From Thermococcus camini (GTDB taxonomy: Archaea > Methanobacteriota_B > Thermococci > Thermococcales > Thermococcaceae), in NCBI RefSeq assembly GCF_904067545.1, contig NZ_LR881183.1:1-64000 (forward strand): a stretch of DNA of 64,000 nt, given 5' to 3'. The position numbers were made by a program, and so were the translations under genes. Below, one piece after another: positions 5,199 through 30,697 of this stretch. The notes under the pieces are model-generated. The model was not told the origin of the DNA. It worked only from the letters and a program-made list of their open reading frames with translations, and searched no databases. The number at the start of each line of letters is the position of its first letter. Position 1 is the first letter of the stretch.

Positions 5199-5396
5199 CT
5201 AACCCCCGGCCCTTGCGAGTCTAAGTTTTTCCATGAAGCGCTCGATTTCCTCAGGACTTCCCTCTACCAGAACCCTGTTGAGGGTTATACCGTTCCTCTC
5301 GATTTTTCCAAGGAAGGCAAGCTTAACCTCTGCCCCGCTCTTCTCGCGTATTTCCTCGAGCTCGCTGAGGGGAATTGGCGTTTCAACAATCCTCAA
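5199..5396 (-). CDS. Small conserved-looking alpha/beta protein (65 aa)
   Basis: The start is set by a perfect GGAGGT at 5403-5408, 6 nt before TTG 5396, giving 65 aa beginning MRIVETPIPLSELEEIR. Longer upstream frames lack a ribosome site and run into non-coding-looking residues. The predicted order is beta-alpha-beta-beta-alpha, a ferredoxin-like size (VKLAFLGKIERNG, LNRVLVEGSPEEIERFMEKL). It lies 32 bp downstream of the AAA ATPase stop, on the same strand. No family is recognised and function is unknown. Confidence 0.55.
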   Translation of the reverse strand: MRIVETPIPLSELEEIREKSGAEVKLAFLGKIERNGITLNRVLVEGSPEEIERFMEKLRLARAGG

Positions 5397-5428
5397 GGAG
5401 GAACCTCCAGAGTGTTCAAAAGAAGATG

Positions 5429-6811
5429 TTAGAGCATCAGTAAAAGGAGCTCCCTCGGTACAAACCATACATCGTCCTTCTTTTTCAAAGGACCATTGTA
5501 TACCACAATACCGCAGGTTAACCCCGTCTTCTTCATGGTCTTGACAACTTGACGGACGCTCTTTCTCCCCCAGCCGACCTCAACCACAACTCCTGTAGTG
5601 TGTCCCTTCAAGATAAAGTCCGCACCGCCTTTTTGGGCATCGTAGTGAAGCCCCAATTTCTTCTCCTTGGCAAGCAGGTGAAGATAAAGCGCTACGGCAT
5701 CCTCAAGAAGCATGCCGAGTGTTTTTGAATCCCTTTCAAAGAGTCCAAACTCGTAAAGCACCGCACTCCTGAGCATTGGTGCCAGAAACTTATACTTCGG
5801 AGTCTTTCGAGCGACTTTGCCCAAAGAACCGTAGGCCCTTACCGGGAAGATGACTTCGAGGTCCTCAAGCTTCTCAATCATTTTTTCTACAGTCGCCTTG
5901 GCAAGCCCCAAAGTTGAGCTCAAGTCATCGTATGCTAAGCTTTCGCCGGAGGCAAGAAGAAGTAACAGACCAAGAACCTTTTCCCGTGTCGTCTCAGAAA
6001 GCCCTTCTCTCACTAAATCAACTTCAACAATCTTTCTCAGTATCTCATAAGCATCTTCAAGCGGATTCCCGGAAGTTAGGTAAATGGGTAGCGAGCCTTG
6101 AATGAGGTAATCCTCAACGTCTCTTTCAGTGAACTTTAGCAGTACTCCCCTAAGCTTCTCCTGGATTCCGGAGAAATCACAGTTGAGAAATGCGCGCTTT
6201 AAAGCCATACTAAGCTCCCCGGGAATTCTTATCCCCTTTTTCAGAAGCAGGTACTCGGTGAAGGTAAGAGGTGGCACCCTGAGCTTCTTGGCCCTTCTCA
6301 TCAAGTCGGGGTCAAGCTTAAGGGGGAGTGAGGAAGATCCGGTAACCACAATCATGAGATTGCTCGCGGAGTCATGGAGGTCTTTCACCGTAGTCCCAAA
6401 GTTCTCATCATAATGGGCTTCGTCAATGAACAGGAAGGTTGGCTGGCTGAGCTCTTCGATTCTTTCGCCGAGGAGACGCTCGTAGGCCTGAAGGAAGTCG
6501 TTCAGACTTATTCCCAACGGACGAAGCTTGTCGAGGGAGACGTAAACGAGTCTCTCCCTTGGAATTTGGGGGAGAAGCTTGAAATACATCTGGGCAAGCA
6601 TGGTGGTCTTTCCAACACCACGAAGACCGTAGAGAACCAAAAGTTTGTTCTCCCGGATTTTAAGGAATAACTCGACTTCCTCTTTAAGATCCGTGAGAGG
6701 TTTCCTTTCAGGTCTTTTTTCTCCAGTTGGGGTAAATACATACTTTCTAAGCCTTGCCTCCGCCGTGTCAATGGTTCTTCTCACAATGCTTTCTACGAGT
6801 CTTTCCTCCAC
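5429..6811 (-). CDS. Archaeal AAA ATPase with C-terminal DUF4143-like domain
   Basis: About 460 aa. The N-terminal AAA_14-type ATPase has Walker A GLRGVGKTT, Walker B FLFIDEAH and a sensor VTGSSSL. A winged-helix segment and a DUF4143-like C-terminal part follow, ending with VVVEVGWGRKSVRQV, which resembles a degenerate restriction-endonuclease-like fold. Proteins of this type are abundant, lineage-specific and poorly understood in archaea, and are often near mobile or variable regions. GTG 6811 (AGGTGAG 5 nt upstream) is preferred over GTG 6820. No DNA target or partner is evident nearby. Confidence 0.8.
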   Translation of the reverse strand: MEERLVESIVRRTIDTAEARLRKYVFTPTGEKRPERKPLTDLKEEVELFLKIRENKLLVLYGLRGVGKTTMLAQMYFKLLPQIPRERLVYVSLDKLRPLGISLNDFLQAYERLLGERIEELSQPTFLFIDEAHYDENFGTTVKDLHDSASNLMIVVTGSSSLPLKLDPDLMRRAKKLRVPPLTFTEYLLLKKGIRIPGELSMALKRAFLNCDFSGIQEKLRGVLLKFTERDVEDYLIQGSLPIYLTSGNPLEDAYEILRKIVEVDLVREGLSETTREKVLGLLLLLASGESLAYDDLSSTLGLAKATVEKMIEKLEDLEVIFPVRAYGSLGKVARKTPKYKFLAPMLRSAVLYEFGLFERDSKTLGMLLEDAVALYLHLLAKEKKLGLHYDAQKGGADFILKGHTTGVVVEVGWGRKSVRQVVKTMKKTGLTCGIVVYNGPLKKKDDVWFVPRELLLLML

Positions 6812-6921
6812 AGCCCTCACCTAAGCGTAGTCTATCACAATGGGATAAAAAGCCATCGTTTTATACTACCTACTTGATATTAAATACAAGAGTAGCTGGG
6901 CTTTATTTCTCTAAACCTTTG

Positions 6922-7893
6922 TCACTCAACCCTGAAAGTTAATCCCTTCTCCCTGGCCTTCCTCCCCACCTGAAGTCTAAAGGCACAGGCCTTGCATATC
7001 TCTCCCGTTGTCGGCTGGCCGCATATCTTACAGCGGTTCAGTTCGCTCGTCTTTTTGGTGTAGGTCTTCGCTATCAGCGGGAAGAGCTTGTCGTAGCTCC
7101 TGAGGATCTGGTATTTGGTGCCGGGGTGTTTTTCTTCCATCTCGTTGAGCCAGTCGCGGATTTCGGCACGGAAGGCTTCGACCGCGTAGGGGCACTCGCT
7201 GAAATCAACCTCTATGTTGTTGAGGACCGCGTAGAGAACTATCTCCTTCTCGGGAATCTCACGGAGGGGCTTTATCCTGGGGACAAGCTCGGGGTGTATC
7301 TCCTCGTAGTATGGGCCCGTCCTGCCCAGTCGGGCTATGTCCCCCCTCAGGATGTTCATTATGAACATCTGGACTTCGTCATCTAAGTTGTGGCCGACAG
7401 CTAATTTATCAGCTCCGACGTCTTTAGCCGCGTAGTTCAGAAGCCACCGTCTCCAGACGCCACAGTAAGAACAGGCACCGACTCTTTCCCCCTTCTCGAA
7501 GCTCCCCATTATCTCGACGGTCTCATCCAGCGTGAAGCCGATGTATTCTTTGAAGGAGTAGATGCGATGCTCTACCCCCAGCTTCTCGGCGTTCCTTCTG
7601 GCTATCTCAACGCTGGGAGGCCTGTAACCGGCTATGCCTTCATCTATCGTTATAGCAACCAGCTCGAAGGGGAACTTCTCGCGCAGCTTCGTCAGGAGAT
7701 GCATGAGAACGACGCTGTCCTTCCCGCCGCTCACACCAACGGCTATCCTCTCACCCTTCTCGATGAGGCGGTACTTCTTCACCGTCTCCTTGAACTTCTT
7801 CTCTACCATCTCGTTGAAGTGTTTCCTGCAGTAGTACCGCCCGGTGTATCTCGCATGATAGACTGCATCACGGCCGCACTTTGAACACTTCAT
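6922..7893 (-). CDS. ncsA: tRNA 2-thiolation enzyme, Ncs6/Ctu1 type
   Basis: TtcA-like PP-loop thiolase of 323 aa. There is an N-terminal zinc finger (CSKCGRDA ... YYCRKH), the PP-loop GVSGGKDS at about residue 53, a central CSYC that would bind the Fe-S cluster, and a C-terminal zinc finger (CKICGQPTTGEICKAC). The features IDEGIAGYR, NILRGDIARLGR, EIPEKEIVLYA and ECPYAVEAFRAE match eukaryotic Ctu1/Ncs6 rather than TtuA, so the expected product is 2-thiouridine at the wobble position U34. The second thiolase at 33431-34345 fits TtuA instead. GGTGAGAGG precedes the ATG. It needs a ubiquitin-like sulfur carrier encoded elsewhere. Confidence 0.87.
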   Translation of the reverse strand: MKCSKCGRDAVYHARYTGRYYCRKHFNEMVEKKFKETVKKYRLIEKGERIAVGVSGGKDSVVLMHLLTKLREKFPFELVAITIDEGIAGYRPPSVEIARRNAEKLGVEHRIYSFKEYIGFTLDETVEIMGSFEKGERVGACSYCGVWRRWLLNYAAKDVGADKLAVGHNLDDEVQMFIMNILRGDIARLGRTGPYYEEIHPELVPRIKPLREIPEKEIVLYAVLNNIEVDFSECPYAVEAFRAEIRDWLNEMEEKHPGTKYQILRSYDKLFPLIAKTYTKKTSELNRCKICGQPTTGEICKACAFRLQVGRKAREKGLTFRVE

Positions 7894-27147: not shown

Positions 27148-30100
27148 TCACTCTATGGTGACCGTCGCGAACTGGGTGAAGGTATCTGCGTCGCCCCACT
27201 CCTGTCCGGGGTCGGTGTCCTTGACCGCGTCCTGGAGCGGCAGTGAATCGACGGCGGAATCGCCGGCACCCTGTCCTGTGACGTAGGCGACCACGTTTAT
27301 CTCTCCGGGCTTGACGCCGAGGGCCTTCCACGGGATCGCTATCTCGAGCGTCTGCAGTCCGTTCTCGGCCCCGCCGGTGTAGGCGTAGAAGCCCACCCAC
27401 TTGAGCTCCTCGTACTTCCAGCTTCCGTCGTTCCAGAGCATGAACTGGGCGCTGGTTATGTTGCCCGTTCCCTTGTCGCCGAAGAACTCGCCGTTCCAGA
27501 AGAAGTAGAGCTGTGCATCGACGCCCCTGCTGAAGCTCACCTTCCTGGCCCAGCTGTCCTGGCCGGTAGTGTAGCCGCCGTCCTTGTAGTCGAGGGCTAT
27601 GCCGTAGGCGATCCTCCAGGAGGCCTTGTTCTCGGTGGTTATCGCGATGTAGAGGAACTGGTCGTCGTAATCGACGTAGAGGGCCTTGAGGTTCGCTCCG
27701 TCCTGGCCGTAGCCGGTCTCATCGACCGCCACCGGCTGGACGCTCCAGTCGTCGAGGTTTCCGTCTATGGTCTTGGTTAGGTTCTTGGCGAGCTCCTGCA
27801 TGTACTTCTCCCTCTCCAGCTCCCCACTCTGGGCCTTCTCCAGCATGGCCTCCATCTCGCTGACGACCTTCTTGAGGCCGGTGTAGGCGCGGTATATCTT
27901 GAGTGAGGCTCCGAATGCGTAGTTCGGGCTGTCTATGAGCTCCTTGCCCTCATTGTAGAGCCTGAGAAGGTCCATAACCTCGTTCTCGAGTTCGTTGAGC
28001 CTCTTCGTCATGTCATCGGTCAGGGGCATGTTCTTGAGCTGGCCGTCGAGTTCGGTGTACCTGCCGTAGTCCTTCTCGAAGTGCCTGACTCCGTAGTACC
28101 TGTTGTGCATCACGAAAGCGTTCTGGAAGGCCATGAGCCTCTGGAGCTTGACGGAGACGACGCTTCCGCCCTCGATGATGTTGTCCATTCTTATGCGGAC
28201 GTAGTAGTCGGGCACGTTGTCGGCGAGCTCCTTGACTGTGGATTCGGTGCTTATTGTATCGACGATGTCGCTTATTCCGTCGTCCGCGAAGTCGTTTCCG
28301 AAGTTCCAGACGCCCTCGCCGTAGCTGAAGCCGGTCGCGACCTGGAAGCTGAACTCCTTCGCGCCCTCAAAGACGCTGACCGGGACCCTTACCTCAATGG
28401 CGTTCTCCTCGAGGTCTATTCCAACCATCGCCCCATCGACCTTCACGACCTTTCCGCTCGGGTCGATGAAGTAGAGCAGCGAGGTCAGGCTGTCCCCGGC
28501 TGGAGCGGTCGCTTTGGTCTGGCCGACGTACTGCTTTCCTCCGAGGTTGATTGCCATCTGAATGTCCCAGGCTATGACCGTCCTGGTGTCCATTCTGCCC
28601 GCGAAGGTCTCGCCCCCGCCCTTCTTGTAGTCTATCGGCACCGCTATGAAGGTCGCCCCGTTGTCGCCTATCTTGATGTTGCTCATGTCCTTGAACTTGA
28701 AGAGGAAGTAGACGTAGCGGTCGTCCTTGGTGACGCCGACCTCGGTGAGGTCAGCGTGGGAGGAGCTTCCGCCCGGAAGGTACGGGTCTTTGTCGGTCTT
28801 CTGGTCGTTCTCGGCGTCCCTCCAGATGAAGTACCCATCTTGGACGGTGTAGGAATTGGGGGTGATATCGGGGCTTACCCAGTCGTCCGGGTTGCCGTCC
28901 ACGTCTATGTTGCCCACCCAGACGACCTGTACGTTCATGGTGAACTCGTTGTTGCTCTCGCTGGCCTCGGGTATGGCGTTCTCCCTGTCCACGACGGCCC
29001 TTATCGTGTAGAGCCCGGTGGCGTTCGGCTTCCATGTGAAGGTGAACCACCTGCTCTCGCCGGCTCCAAGGCTTATCGTCCAGTTGGCCGCGAGGGTGTC
29101 GTTCACGTACACGGCAACGCTGGCGTTCTGGGCAGGCAGGGAGCCCTCGTTCCTGACGGTGACGTTGTAGACGGCGTTCCTGTTGAGGCCGACCACGCCG
29201 GGTCCGCTCATGCCGACGGTCAGGTCTGCCATCAGGAACCACTCGCCGACGAGCATGCTGGTGAAGGTGTCGGTGTCCCCCCACTCGTTTCCGATGTCGG
29301 TGTAGTCTATGGCCGGATCAACGGGGAGGCTGTCTACGGCCGAGCCGCTGCTTCCGGTTATCCAGGACATAACGGCGAACCTGGAGCGCTTTCCTCCAAG
29401 GGCGCTCCAAGGAATGGCTATCTCAAGGGTCTGAAGGCCCGTTGAGGTGTCGCCGGTGTAGGCGAAGCTCCCACCGACGCCGGAGATGCTGTTGTAGTTC
29501 CAGCCGCTTCCGGTGTAGGTGTTGAAGTTATCAGTTCCCATTCCGCTGTCCCAGCCCCACCAGAAGTAGAGTTCGTAATCAACGGCGAATCCGTTGGCGA
29601 ACTCGACGTTCCTTCCCCATGAATCGCCGCCGCTCGTGTATCCGTTGCCAGTTCCAGGGTCGACGTCTATTCCTATTCCATAAGCGACGTTCCAGCTTCC
29701 CGTGTTGTTGGTCTTGATGGCTATGTAGAGGTACTGGTCGTCCCAGGAGACGTACATCTTGTCGAGGTTCGCTCCATCCTGCCCGTTGTCCCTTCCAACG
29801 GCCACGAGGTCGGCATCGCTCCAGTCGCTCAGGTTGCCGTCTATGGTCTTGGGAGCGACGTAGAGAACCGCCATGCTGGTGAAGGTGTCGGTGTCCCCCC
29901 ACTCGTTTCCGATGTCGGTGTAGTCTATGGCCGGATCAACGGGGAGGCTGTCCACCGCTGAGCCGCCGCTTCCAGTGACCCATGCCATCACCGCTACCTT
30001 CTCCGGCTTTCCTCCCAGGGCGCTCCACGGTATCTTTATCTCGACCGTTTGGAGGCCGGTCGATGTGTCGCCGGTGTAGGCGAAGCTCCCACCGACGCCG

Positions 30101-30561
30101 GAGATGCTGTTGTAGTTCCAGCCGCTTCCGGTGTAGGTGTTGAAGTTATCAGTTCCCATTCCGCTGTCCCAGCCCCACCAGAAGTAAATCTCATAGTCTG
30201 GAGCAAAGCCGTTCGAGAACTCAACGCTTCTTCCCCAGGAATCTCCTCCGGAAACGTAACCGTTGCCGGTTCCGGGGTCGATGTCTATTCCTATTCCGTA
30301 AGCGACGTCCCAGCTTCCGGTGTTGTTGGTCTTGATGGCTATGTACAGGTACTGGTCGTCCCATGAAACATAGAGCCTGTCGAGGTTGGCTCCGGCCTGT
30401 CCGTTGTCCTTTCCAGCGGCTATGAGGTCAGCGGAAGTCCAGTCGCTGAGGCTTCCGTCTATGATTTTAGTGCCGTACATGGCGCTGACGAGGCCGCTAA
30501 ACGTGGGCACTAAACCGAGCAACAGAACGAAGGTTAACATAACTGCCGCCGTTTTCTTCAC
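27148..30561 (-). CDS. Large secreted repeat protein with three or four CBM9/DOMON-like beta domains and a CARDB-like domain
   Basis: 1,137 aa from GTG 30561, fixed by GGAGGT 7 nt upstream. Signal peptide MKKTAAVMLTFVLLLGLVPTFSG. Domains in order: beta-domain repeat 1 (about 35-245), repeat 2 (about 245-450), each opening IDGxLSDW and holding WDDQYLYIAIKTNNTGSW and GNEWGDTDTFTSM; a CARDB/Ig-like domain (about 455-565); a third, divergent IDVDGNPDDW domain; a helical stretch (about 790-910); and a C-terminal repeat (IDGNLDDWSVQPV). No catalytic domain is seen. Related domains occur C-terminal to Thermococcus amylopullulanases. Its promoter is shared with 4-alpha-glucanotransferase, so surface binding of alpha-glucans is the likely role (inference). 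Confidence 0.78.
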   Translation of the reverse strand: MKKTAAVMLTFVLLLGLVPTFSGLVSAMYGTKIIDGSLSDWTSADLIAAGKDNGQAGANLDRLYVSWDDQYLYIAIKTNNTGSWDVAYGIGIDIDPGTGNGYVSGGDSWGRSVEFSNGFAPDYEIYFWWGWDSGMGTDNFNTYTGSGWNYNSISGVGGSFAYTGDTSTGLQTVEIKIPWSALGGKPEKVAVMAWVTGSGGSAVDSLPVDPAIDYTDIGNEWGDTDTFTSMAVLYVAPKTIDGNLSDWSDADLVAVGRDNGQDGANLDKMYVSWDDQYLYIAIKTNNTGSWNVAYGIGIDVDPGTGNGYTSGGDSWGRNVEFANGFAVDYELYFWWGWDSGMGTDNFNTYTGSGWNYNSISGVGGSFAYTGDTSTGLQTLEIAIPWSALGGKRSRFAVMSWITGSSGSAVDSLPVDPAIDYTDIGNEWGDTDTFTSMLVGEWFLMADLTVGMSGPGVVGLNRNAVYNVTVRNEGSLPAQNASVAVYVNDTLAANWTISLGAGESRWFTFTWKPNATGLYTIRAVVDRENAIPEASESNNEFTMNVQVVWVGNIDVDGNPDDWVSPDITPNSYTVQDGYFIWRDAENDQKTDKDPYLPGGSSSHADLTEVGVTKDDRYVYFLFKFKDMSNIKIGDNGATFIAVPIDYKKGGGETFAGRMDTRTVIAWDIQMAINLGGKQYVGQTKATAPAGDSLTSLLYFIDPSGKVVKVDGAMVGIDLEENAIEVRVPVSVFEGAKEFSFQVATGFSYGEGVWNFGNDFADDGISDIVDTISTESTVKELADNVPDYYVRIRMDNIIEGGSVVSVKLQRLMAFQNAFVMHNRYYGVRHFEKDYGRYTELDGQLKNMPLTDDMTKRLNELENEVMDLLRLYNEGKELIDSPNYAFGASLKIYRAYTGLKKVVSEMEAMLEKAQSGELEREKYMQELAKNLTKTIDGNLDDWSVQPVAVDETGYGQDGANLKALYVDYDDQFLYIAITTENKASWRIAYGIALDYKDGGYTTGQDSWARKVSFSRGVDAQLYFFWNGEFFGDKGTGNITSAQFMLWNDGSWKYEELKWVGFYAYTGGAENGLQTLEIAIPWKALGVKPGEINVVAYVTGQGAGDSAVDSLPLQDAVKDTDPGQEWGDADTFTQFATVTIE
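29262..30188 (-). repeat. Long direct DNA repeat (618-bp period) inside the surface protein gene
   Basis: Segments at about 29262-29570 and 29880-30188 encode the equivalent parts of beta-domain repeats 1 and 2. Blocks of over 100 bp (for example 29455-29575 against 30073-30193) look identical or nearly so at the DNA level, including third codon positions, while flanking parts of the same repeats differ. The offset of 618 bp is 206 codons. Confidence 0.85.
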
Positions 30562-30605
30562 ATCATCCACCTCCATTGGGGGATAAATCCCCAGGGGTGT
30601 ACGGT

Positions 30606-30674
30606 AGTCACCCGTAGTGAGTATTATGAGAAAAAGGTTTATATGCCTTTCTTTCCATATCACCGCTAGTGATA
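30606..30674. promoter_or_regulatory. Divergent promoter with two TGM sites around one TATA core
   Basis: A perfect Thermococcales-Glycolytic-Motif, TATCAC-N5-GTGATA, lies at 30658-30674, 13 bp after the TATA-like TTTATATG (30638-30645) that serves the plus-strand glucanotransferase gene. On the other side, 16 bp from the same core, AGTCAC-N5-GTGAGT (30606-30622) is a degenerate TGM in front of the minus-strand surface protein gene. TGM is the binding site of the sugar-responsive regulator TrmBL1 (Tgr). Sites downstream of TATA are associated with repression relieved by maltodextrins. Confidence 0.85.
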
Positions 30675-30697
30675 ACAGCTTTGGTGGGTGGTTGCCA

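Follow-up and report, generated by a model that had tools for sequence, protein, structure and literature searches.

A putative shared promoter core between two TrmBL1-type operators at the 4-alpha-glucanotransferase locus of Thermococcus camini

The divergent gene pair and its products

The analysed window is a stretch of 64,000 nucleotides from the Thermococcus camini genome (contig NZ_LR881183.1, positions 1 to 64,000, forward strand). It contains two divergent genes, and the spacer of 136 bp between them holds a TATA box and both TGM sites (Table 1). The GH57 catalytic domain and the middle and C-terminal 4-alpha-glucanotransferase domains were all found by Pfam in the plus-strand product. 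The minus-strand gene is predicted to encode a large surface protein, and the GGAGGTG-like motif at its Shine-Dalgarno sequence is kept in relatives. In the 5' UTR of this gene, between TGM2 and the Shine-Dalgarno sequence, we also found the stretch TCCCCA(A/G)GGGTGT (30588-30600), mostly 80-95% conserved in 21 genomes and possibly another small inverted repeat.

Table 1. Features of the divergent locus (window coordinates)
Feature	Position	Strand	Remarks
Secreted starch-binding-type protein, 1137 aa (predicted)	27148..30561	-	GTG start at 30561; signal-peptide-like N-terminus
Shine-Dalgarno GGAGGTGG of surface-protein gene	30567..30574	-	read from sequence
TGM2, putative weaker TrmBL1-type operator AGTCACCCGTAGTGAGT, over predicted minus start	30606..30622		TCAC-N5-GTGA core complete
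Predicted transcription start region, surface-protein gene (inferred)	30612..30618	-	TATA centre minus 25-27 nt; spacing from PMC5316973, PMC6640164
BRE-like purine tract AAAAAGG for glucanotransferase	30631..30637	+	98.6% mean conservation (21 genomes)
Shared TATA box, TTTATATG on plus, CATATAAA on minus	30638..30645	both	invariant in 21 genomes with the same architecture
BRE-like purine tract for minus gene, AAGAAAGG read on minus	30646..30653	-	94% mean conservation (21 genomes)
TGM1, perfect TrmBL1 operator TATCACCGCTAGTGATA, over predicted plus start	30658..30674		exact consensus TATCAC-N5-GTGATA, no mismatch
Predicted transcription start region, glucanotransferase (inferred)	30664..30670	+	TATA centre plus 25-27 nt; spacing from PMC5316973, PMC6640164
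Shine-Dalgarno-like GGTGGGTGGT of glucanotransferase gene	30683-30692	+
GH57 4-alpha-glucanotransferase, 652 aa	30698..32656	+	ATG 30698; Pfam PF03065, PF09094, PF09095

The surface protein contains three CBM74/CBM9-like repeats of about 210 aa each and one CARDB domain (PF07705 at residues 445-541 in Pfam). Residues 440-547 matched the solved CARDB domains 3IDU (E 5.9e-25) and 2KL6 (E 1.5e-24), the latter being PF1109 of P. furiosus (PMC8416519). By this domain the protein can be regarded as a homologue of PF1109; when the PF1109 signal peptide was used as query, it gave no match in 94 genomes, and the likeness to PF1109 rests here on the CARDB domain. PF1109/1110 has been described as an extracellular starch-binding protein which is up-regulated on starch and occurs in the culture medium when the cells grow on starch (PMC3824201). 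The structure of the repeat was predicted with a pLDDT of 94.5, and its best solved match in fold was the CBM74 of Ruminococcus bromii Sas6 with maltodecaose (7UWV; E 2.9e-8, TMq 0.67, 17% identity), followed by CBM9 modules. The CARDB match and the CBM74-like fold together indicate that the surface protein likely binds starch. The link of this protein to maltodextrin use, which the preliminary description had derived from the promoter, is thus borne out by homology and fold, and it holds independently of the promoter.

The TATA core and the two TGM sites

The preliminary description placed a perfect and a degenerate TGM on the two sides of one TATA box, and the sequence is as described, except that the gaps are 12 bases to the perfect TGM and 15 to the degenerate one, instead of 13 and 16 bp. 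It also called the arrangement symmetric. Two sites, 52 bp apart, do surround one core, but the distance from the middle of the TATA box is 24.5 bp for the centre of TGM1 and 27.5 bp for that of TGM2, which makes the arrangement nearly but not exactly symmetric. TGM1, which is downstream of the TATA box and overlaps the inferred plus start, is the window's single exact TGM, and the 2.02 Mb genome has just one more. In TGM2 the eight inner bases (TCAC...GTGA) of the consensus TATCAC-N5-GTGATA are intact and the four outer ones are all mismatched.

With a TGM weight matrix, site 2 ranked 10th among the 63,984 17-mers of the window and scored 9.7 bits, against 23.3 bits for TGM1. The core TCAC-N5-GTGA occurs four times in the 64 kb, and under a Markov-1 model the 96 bp that precede TGM1 on its upstream side would hold one such core with P ~0.0007. 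When three mismatches were allowed, 19 TGM matches were counted in the window against 14.1 expected, which is not above chance; loose matching alone is therefore uninformative, and the argument is carried by the comparative test given below. Through a search for the two-site pattern (gap 36-42 bp) in 61 genomes of the genus, we found almost exclusively this locus, in the majority of genomes with the divergent pair and in G018, in which the partner gene is missing, and one other locus in three genomes; the reversed control pattern gave zero matches in the same 61 genomes. A chance match as the origin of site 2 was rejected on this search, on the Markov-1 probability and on the linkage with the partner gene.

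The best local two-fold symmetry centre is 30641.5, exactly in the middle of the TATA box, and the locus has what characterizes a BRE-TATA-BRE promoter, a near-symmetric TATA box with a BRE on each side. In P. furiosus such cores give bidirectional transcription from a shared TATA box, for PF1918 also in vitro, and their paired starts are 49-50 bp apart (PMC6640164). Since the TATA box is about 25-27 bp from the transcription start (PMC5316973), both starts that we infer would fall within about 3 bp of the operator centres. We searched 42 divergent loci for a conserved separate TATA box of the minus gene and found none; on that strand the only conserved TATA-like element is the shared core, at a distance of 56-83 nt from the minus start codon. 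The earlier proposal that the core can also serve as TATA box for the minus gene, which a separate box would have contradicted, is supported by this result.

TrmBL1 itself is encoded in the genome (NCBIfam equivalog NF047390, 667.1 bits with a cut-off of 650), and Tyr49 and Asp50 were read from its ORF in the recognition helix by comparison with PMC4158304. ChIP-seq in P. furiosus detected TrmBL1 at PF0272 (a proposed 4-alpha-glucanotransferase) and at PF1109/1110, with the TGM downstream of the promoter. In the same study all nine templates with a downstream TGM were repressed by TrmBL1 in vitro, and no TrmBL1 sites were bound under glycolytic conditions (PMC4706686).

Site 2 and the partner gene in Thermococcaceae

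Glucanotransferase promoters were gathered from about 80 genomes of the family, and the counts cover the genomes with a TGM at the glucanotransferase gene and a known neighbour, 43 with the surface gene as partner and 30 without it. Left out were G053, G064, G066, G067, G069 and G071 (no TGM1) as well as G051 and G034 (partner displaced or contig end), and G014 was entered by hand as partner-positive because its partner differs only in the N-terminus. In this genome (L104, G014:C1, upstream of 416135) the promoter and the partner are kept; the N-terminal domain of the partner is different, and for this reason its start was placed wrongly by the homology search (gap 1158). In G051 (L242, G051:C268, about 5200-7000) a transposon separates the putative bidirectional promoter from the displaced partner gene, and its serine-recombinase-like and TnpB-like ORFs suggest by eye an IS607-type element.

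A second site was found 50-52 bp from the first in 43/43 partner-positive genomes and in 5/30 partner-less ones (Fisher 6e-15); the other 25 keep TGM1 and have no site 2. Among the 43 partner-positive genomes, the TCAC/GTGA core of site 2 is perfect in 22, has one mismatch in 16 and two in 5. With a strict cut-off (at most one core mismatch), site 2 was present in 38/43 genomes with the partner versus 3/30 without it (8e-12). The minus-facing BRE, scored as CTTT immediately after the TATA box, followed the same distribution, 43/43 versus 8/30. On the tree of the enzyme, well supported branches carry at least 12 changes in the presence of the partner gene, and the best tree has 18. In phylogenetically independent pairs, site 2 followed the partner in about 10 of 12 and opposed it in none (median sign test 0.002; 0.008 with the strict cut-off), and the value for the minus-facing BRE was 0.008.

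Where the partner is lacking, as in G024, the next upstream gene reaches directly to the BRE, so the surface gene and site 2 are gained and lost as one cassette. As site 2 is on the partner's side of this breakpoint, part of the co-loss could reflect physical linkage instead of selection; even with such linkage, site 2 still falls in the promoter half of the partner. Four genomes of another genus (G072, G067, G071 and G069) have the surface gene elsewhere and alone. There its own TATA box is followed, just ahead of the start codon, by a near-perfect TGM, TATCACTTGAGGTGAAC or TATCACTTGAGGTGATT, with the motif TATCACTTGAGGTGAA(C) or a close variant. Judged by these stand-alone copies with their own TGM, site 2 appears to belong to the surface gene.

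Whether site 2 is an operator at all was considered in the first of three other explanations, according to which transcription of the minus gene does begin at the shared core but site 2 is an initiator, a 5' UTR element or the site of another regulator, not bound by TrmBL1. Every outer base is off-consensus, the weight-matrix score is far under that of TGM1, and the core has two mismatches in five of the partner-positive genomes; TrmBL1 may therefore bind weakly or not at all. Conservation points the other way. In the 21 genomes of the exact architecture, the half-sites of TGM1 are 100% conserved and its 5-base spacer 82%, and the core of TGM2 is 98% conserved versus 77% for both its spacer and its flank; half-sites that are held while the spacer drifts are the pattern expected of a dimer operator and the signature of a TGM. 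The near-perfect TGM in the same place at the stand-alone homologues and the targeting of PF1109/1110 by TrmBL1 in vivo (PMC4706686) also speak for binding, and we consider an unbound site 2 improbable.

The second explanation assigns site 2 to the plus gene, as a TrmBL1 activator site upstream of the BRE which would act with or against the downstream repressor site. TGMs upstream of BRE and TATA are indeed activating in P. furiosus (PMC4706686), and a few partner-less genomes (G018, G074, G077 and G084) retain the upstream site. Such a function is nevertheless disfavoured, since the site is absent where the partner is absent, in the 25 genomes mentioned above in spite of their TGM1. The stand-alone copies of the minus gene have their own TGM, and an activator that turns on a glycolytic gene during gluconeogenesis would work against TGM1; we regard this explanation as very improbable. 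In the last one the core works only toward the glucanotransferase; the minus-strand signals would be no more than the passive symmetry that archaeal TATA boxes commonly show, and the surface gene would have an unrecognised promoter. This explanation could refer to the symmetric core kept in the partner-less G011, G024 and G047 (symmetry by itself is thus no proof of two-way use) and to the reading of shared-TATA transcription in P. furiosus mainly as antisense noise (PMC6640164), but with no other conserved TATA-like element between the genes in 42 loci and the minus-facing BRE missing in 22/30 partner-less loci it is very improbable.

Other arrangements of these elements were also observed. 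In other lineages there is a second architecture with a GCATAAAATATTTATATACCTTTTC core, in which site 2 is at 50 bp and a further palindrome overlaps the Shine-Dalgarno sequence of the minus gene. This palindrome, of the ATTCACCTCGGGTGATA type, is TGM-like and the third such site at these loci; it was detected at a distance of 20 bp from site 2 in G013, G016, G026, G028, G042, G052, G061, G062, G073, G075, G076, G079, G080 and G086-G093, and it could double as ribosome site and operator. In the clade of G009, G012, G031, G037, G045 and G050, a TGM lies directly over the TATA box (AAAAGGTTATATCACC) in the promoter of the same enzyme, by its position a putative different repression geometry for the glucanotransferase.

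A non-homologous double TGM with equal spacing and a symmetric TTTAAA core was found at L237:6637-6701 (G007:C1:1052636-1052700), and also at G014:C1:1302410 and G060:C1:997031. Its neighbours, named by eye, are prolidase-like and pelota-like genes. On its minus side is an ORF of 31 aa (MTPMMYVWLITVEREARQKLQKKTLKPEDAF), clear only in G007, G014 and G060 with a weak match in G056, and Rfam gave only a sub-threshold match at this locus. The presence of this second, unrelated core in three genomes suggests that the design may have arisen more than once.

A model of joint repression and its relation to known systems

On the observed elements, their conservation and their linkage with the partner gene, we consider it probable that both genes depend on a single symmetric BRE-TATA-BRE core and that TrmBL1 represses each start until maltodextrin appears. 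TBP would bind the single near-symmetric TATA box, and TFB on either flank would direct RNA polymerase toward the cytoplasmic 4-alpha-glucanotransferase (plus) or the secreted starch-binding protein (minus). Each start, about 25-27 bp from the TATA centre, would be inside a TrmBL1 operator, perfect on the plus side and weaker on the minus side. The operator spacing, always 50-52 bp, is as expected from the distance between paired P. furiosus starts (PMC6640164). When maltodextrin is lacking, TrmBL1 would occupy both operators and block polymerase recruitment; maltotriose or maltose would release it, and the core could then fire either way. Extracellular starch capture and intracellular maltodextrin processing would thereby be induced together. 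The weaker operator of the surface protein suggests an earlier release, so this protein would probably be induced at a lower inducer level.

Joint repression of the two genes by TrmBL1 had already been put forward in the preliminary description. It gained support from the family-wide tracking of the minus gene by site 2, from BRE tracts on both sides that match the two-way motif of P. furiosus (PMC6640164), and from the TrmBL1 gene in this genome. We might further speculate, with much doubt, that the operator pair acts as one unit, in which TrmBL1 bridges both sites and closes the TATA box from both sides. TrmBL1 has been reported as tetramer and octamer (PMC4158304), which would make bridging across 50-52 bp (about five helical turns) possible. 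Partial release would then free one face, and the sugar level would set the direction of firing as well as the output, a maltodextrin-controlled direction switch.

Two-way transcription from a shared archaeal TATA box has mostly been read as noise. The comparative genomics here argues for a kept and regulated device, because genomes with the second gene keep the second operator and the second BRE, and genomes without this gene usually lack them. The locus offers a natural system of about 70 bp for studying how a symmetric TBP-TATA complex picks its direction and if this choice can be steered by a repressor, and it points to a sugar-responsive role for a large surface protein which is otherwise without assignment in this genome.

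All parts of this arrangement are already known. Paired TrmBL1 operators at both starts of one core, for two coding genes of one pathway, were not found described in the literature searched, outside of which lay most subscription papers, and the same search gave one passing mention that joins TrmBL1 with a bidirectional promoter. The surface-protein repeat resembles the Sas6 CBM74 in fold, with the low identity and the CBM9 matches given above. The nearest system is the TGM/TrmBL1 (Tgr) glycolytic regulon of Thermococcales, which shares with this locus the operator, the regulator orthologue, the enzyme, a homologous starch-binding protein and the TGM downstream of the TATA box. However, PF0272 and PF1109/1110 of P. 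furiosus are listed as separate binding sites and transcription units, whereas here two TGM sites surround one core that both genes would share. The P. furiosus promoters of the BRE-TATA-BRE type (PMC6640164; in vitro for PF1918) are alike in the near-symmetric TATA box and the purine BREs on both sides, and their start-to-start distance of about 50 bp compares with our inferred starts at operators 52 bp apart. Those promoters were studied as sources of antisense RNA, with no regulator involved, while two coding transcripts with an operator each are proposed here. One TrmBL1-bound region between divergent genes is also present at PF1538/PF1539 (PMC4706686), as predicted for TrmBL1 binding here, but there TrmBL1 is believed to act as repressor for one gene and as activator for the other, whereas the present locus has one site per gene, both of them in the position typical of repression.
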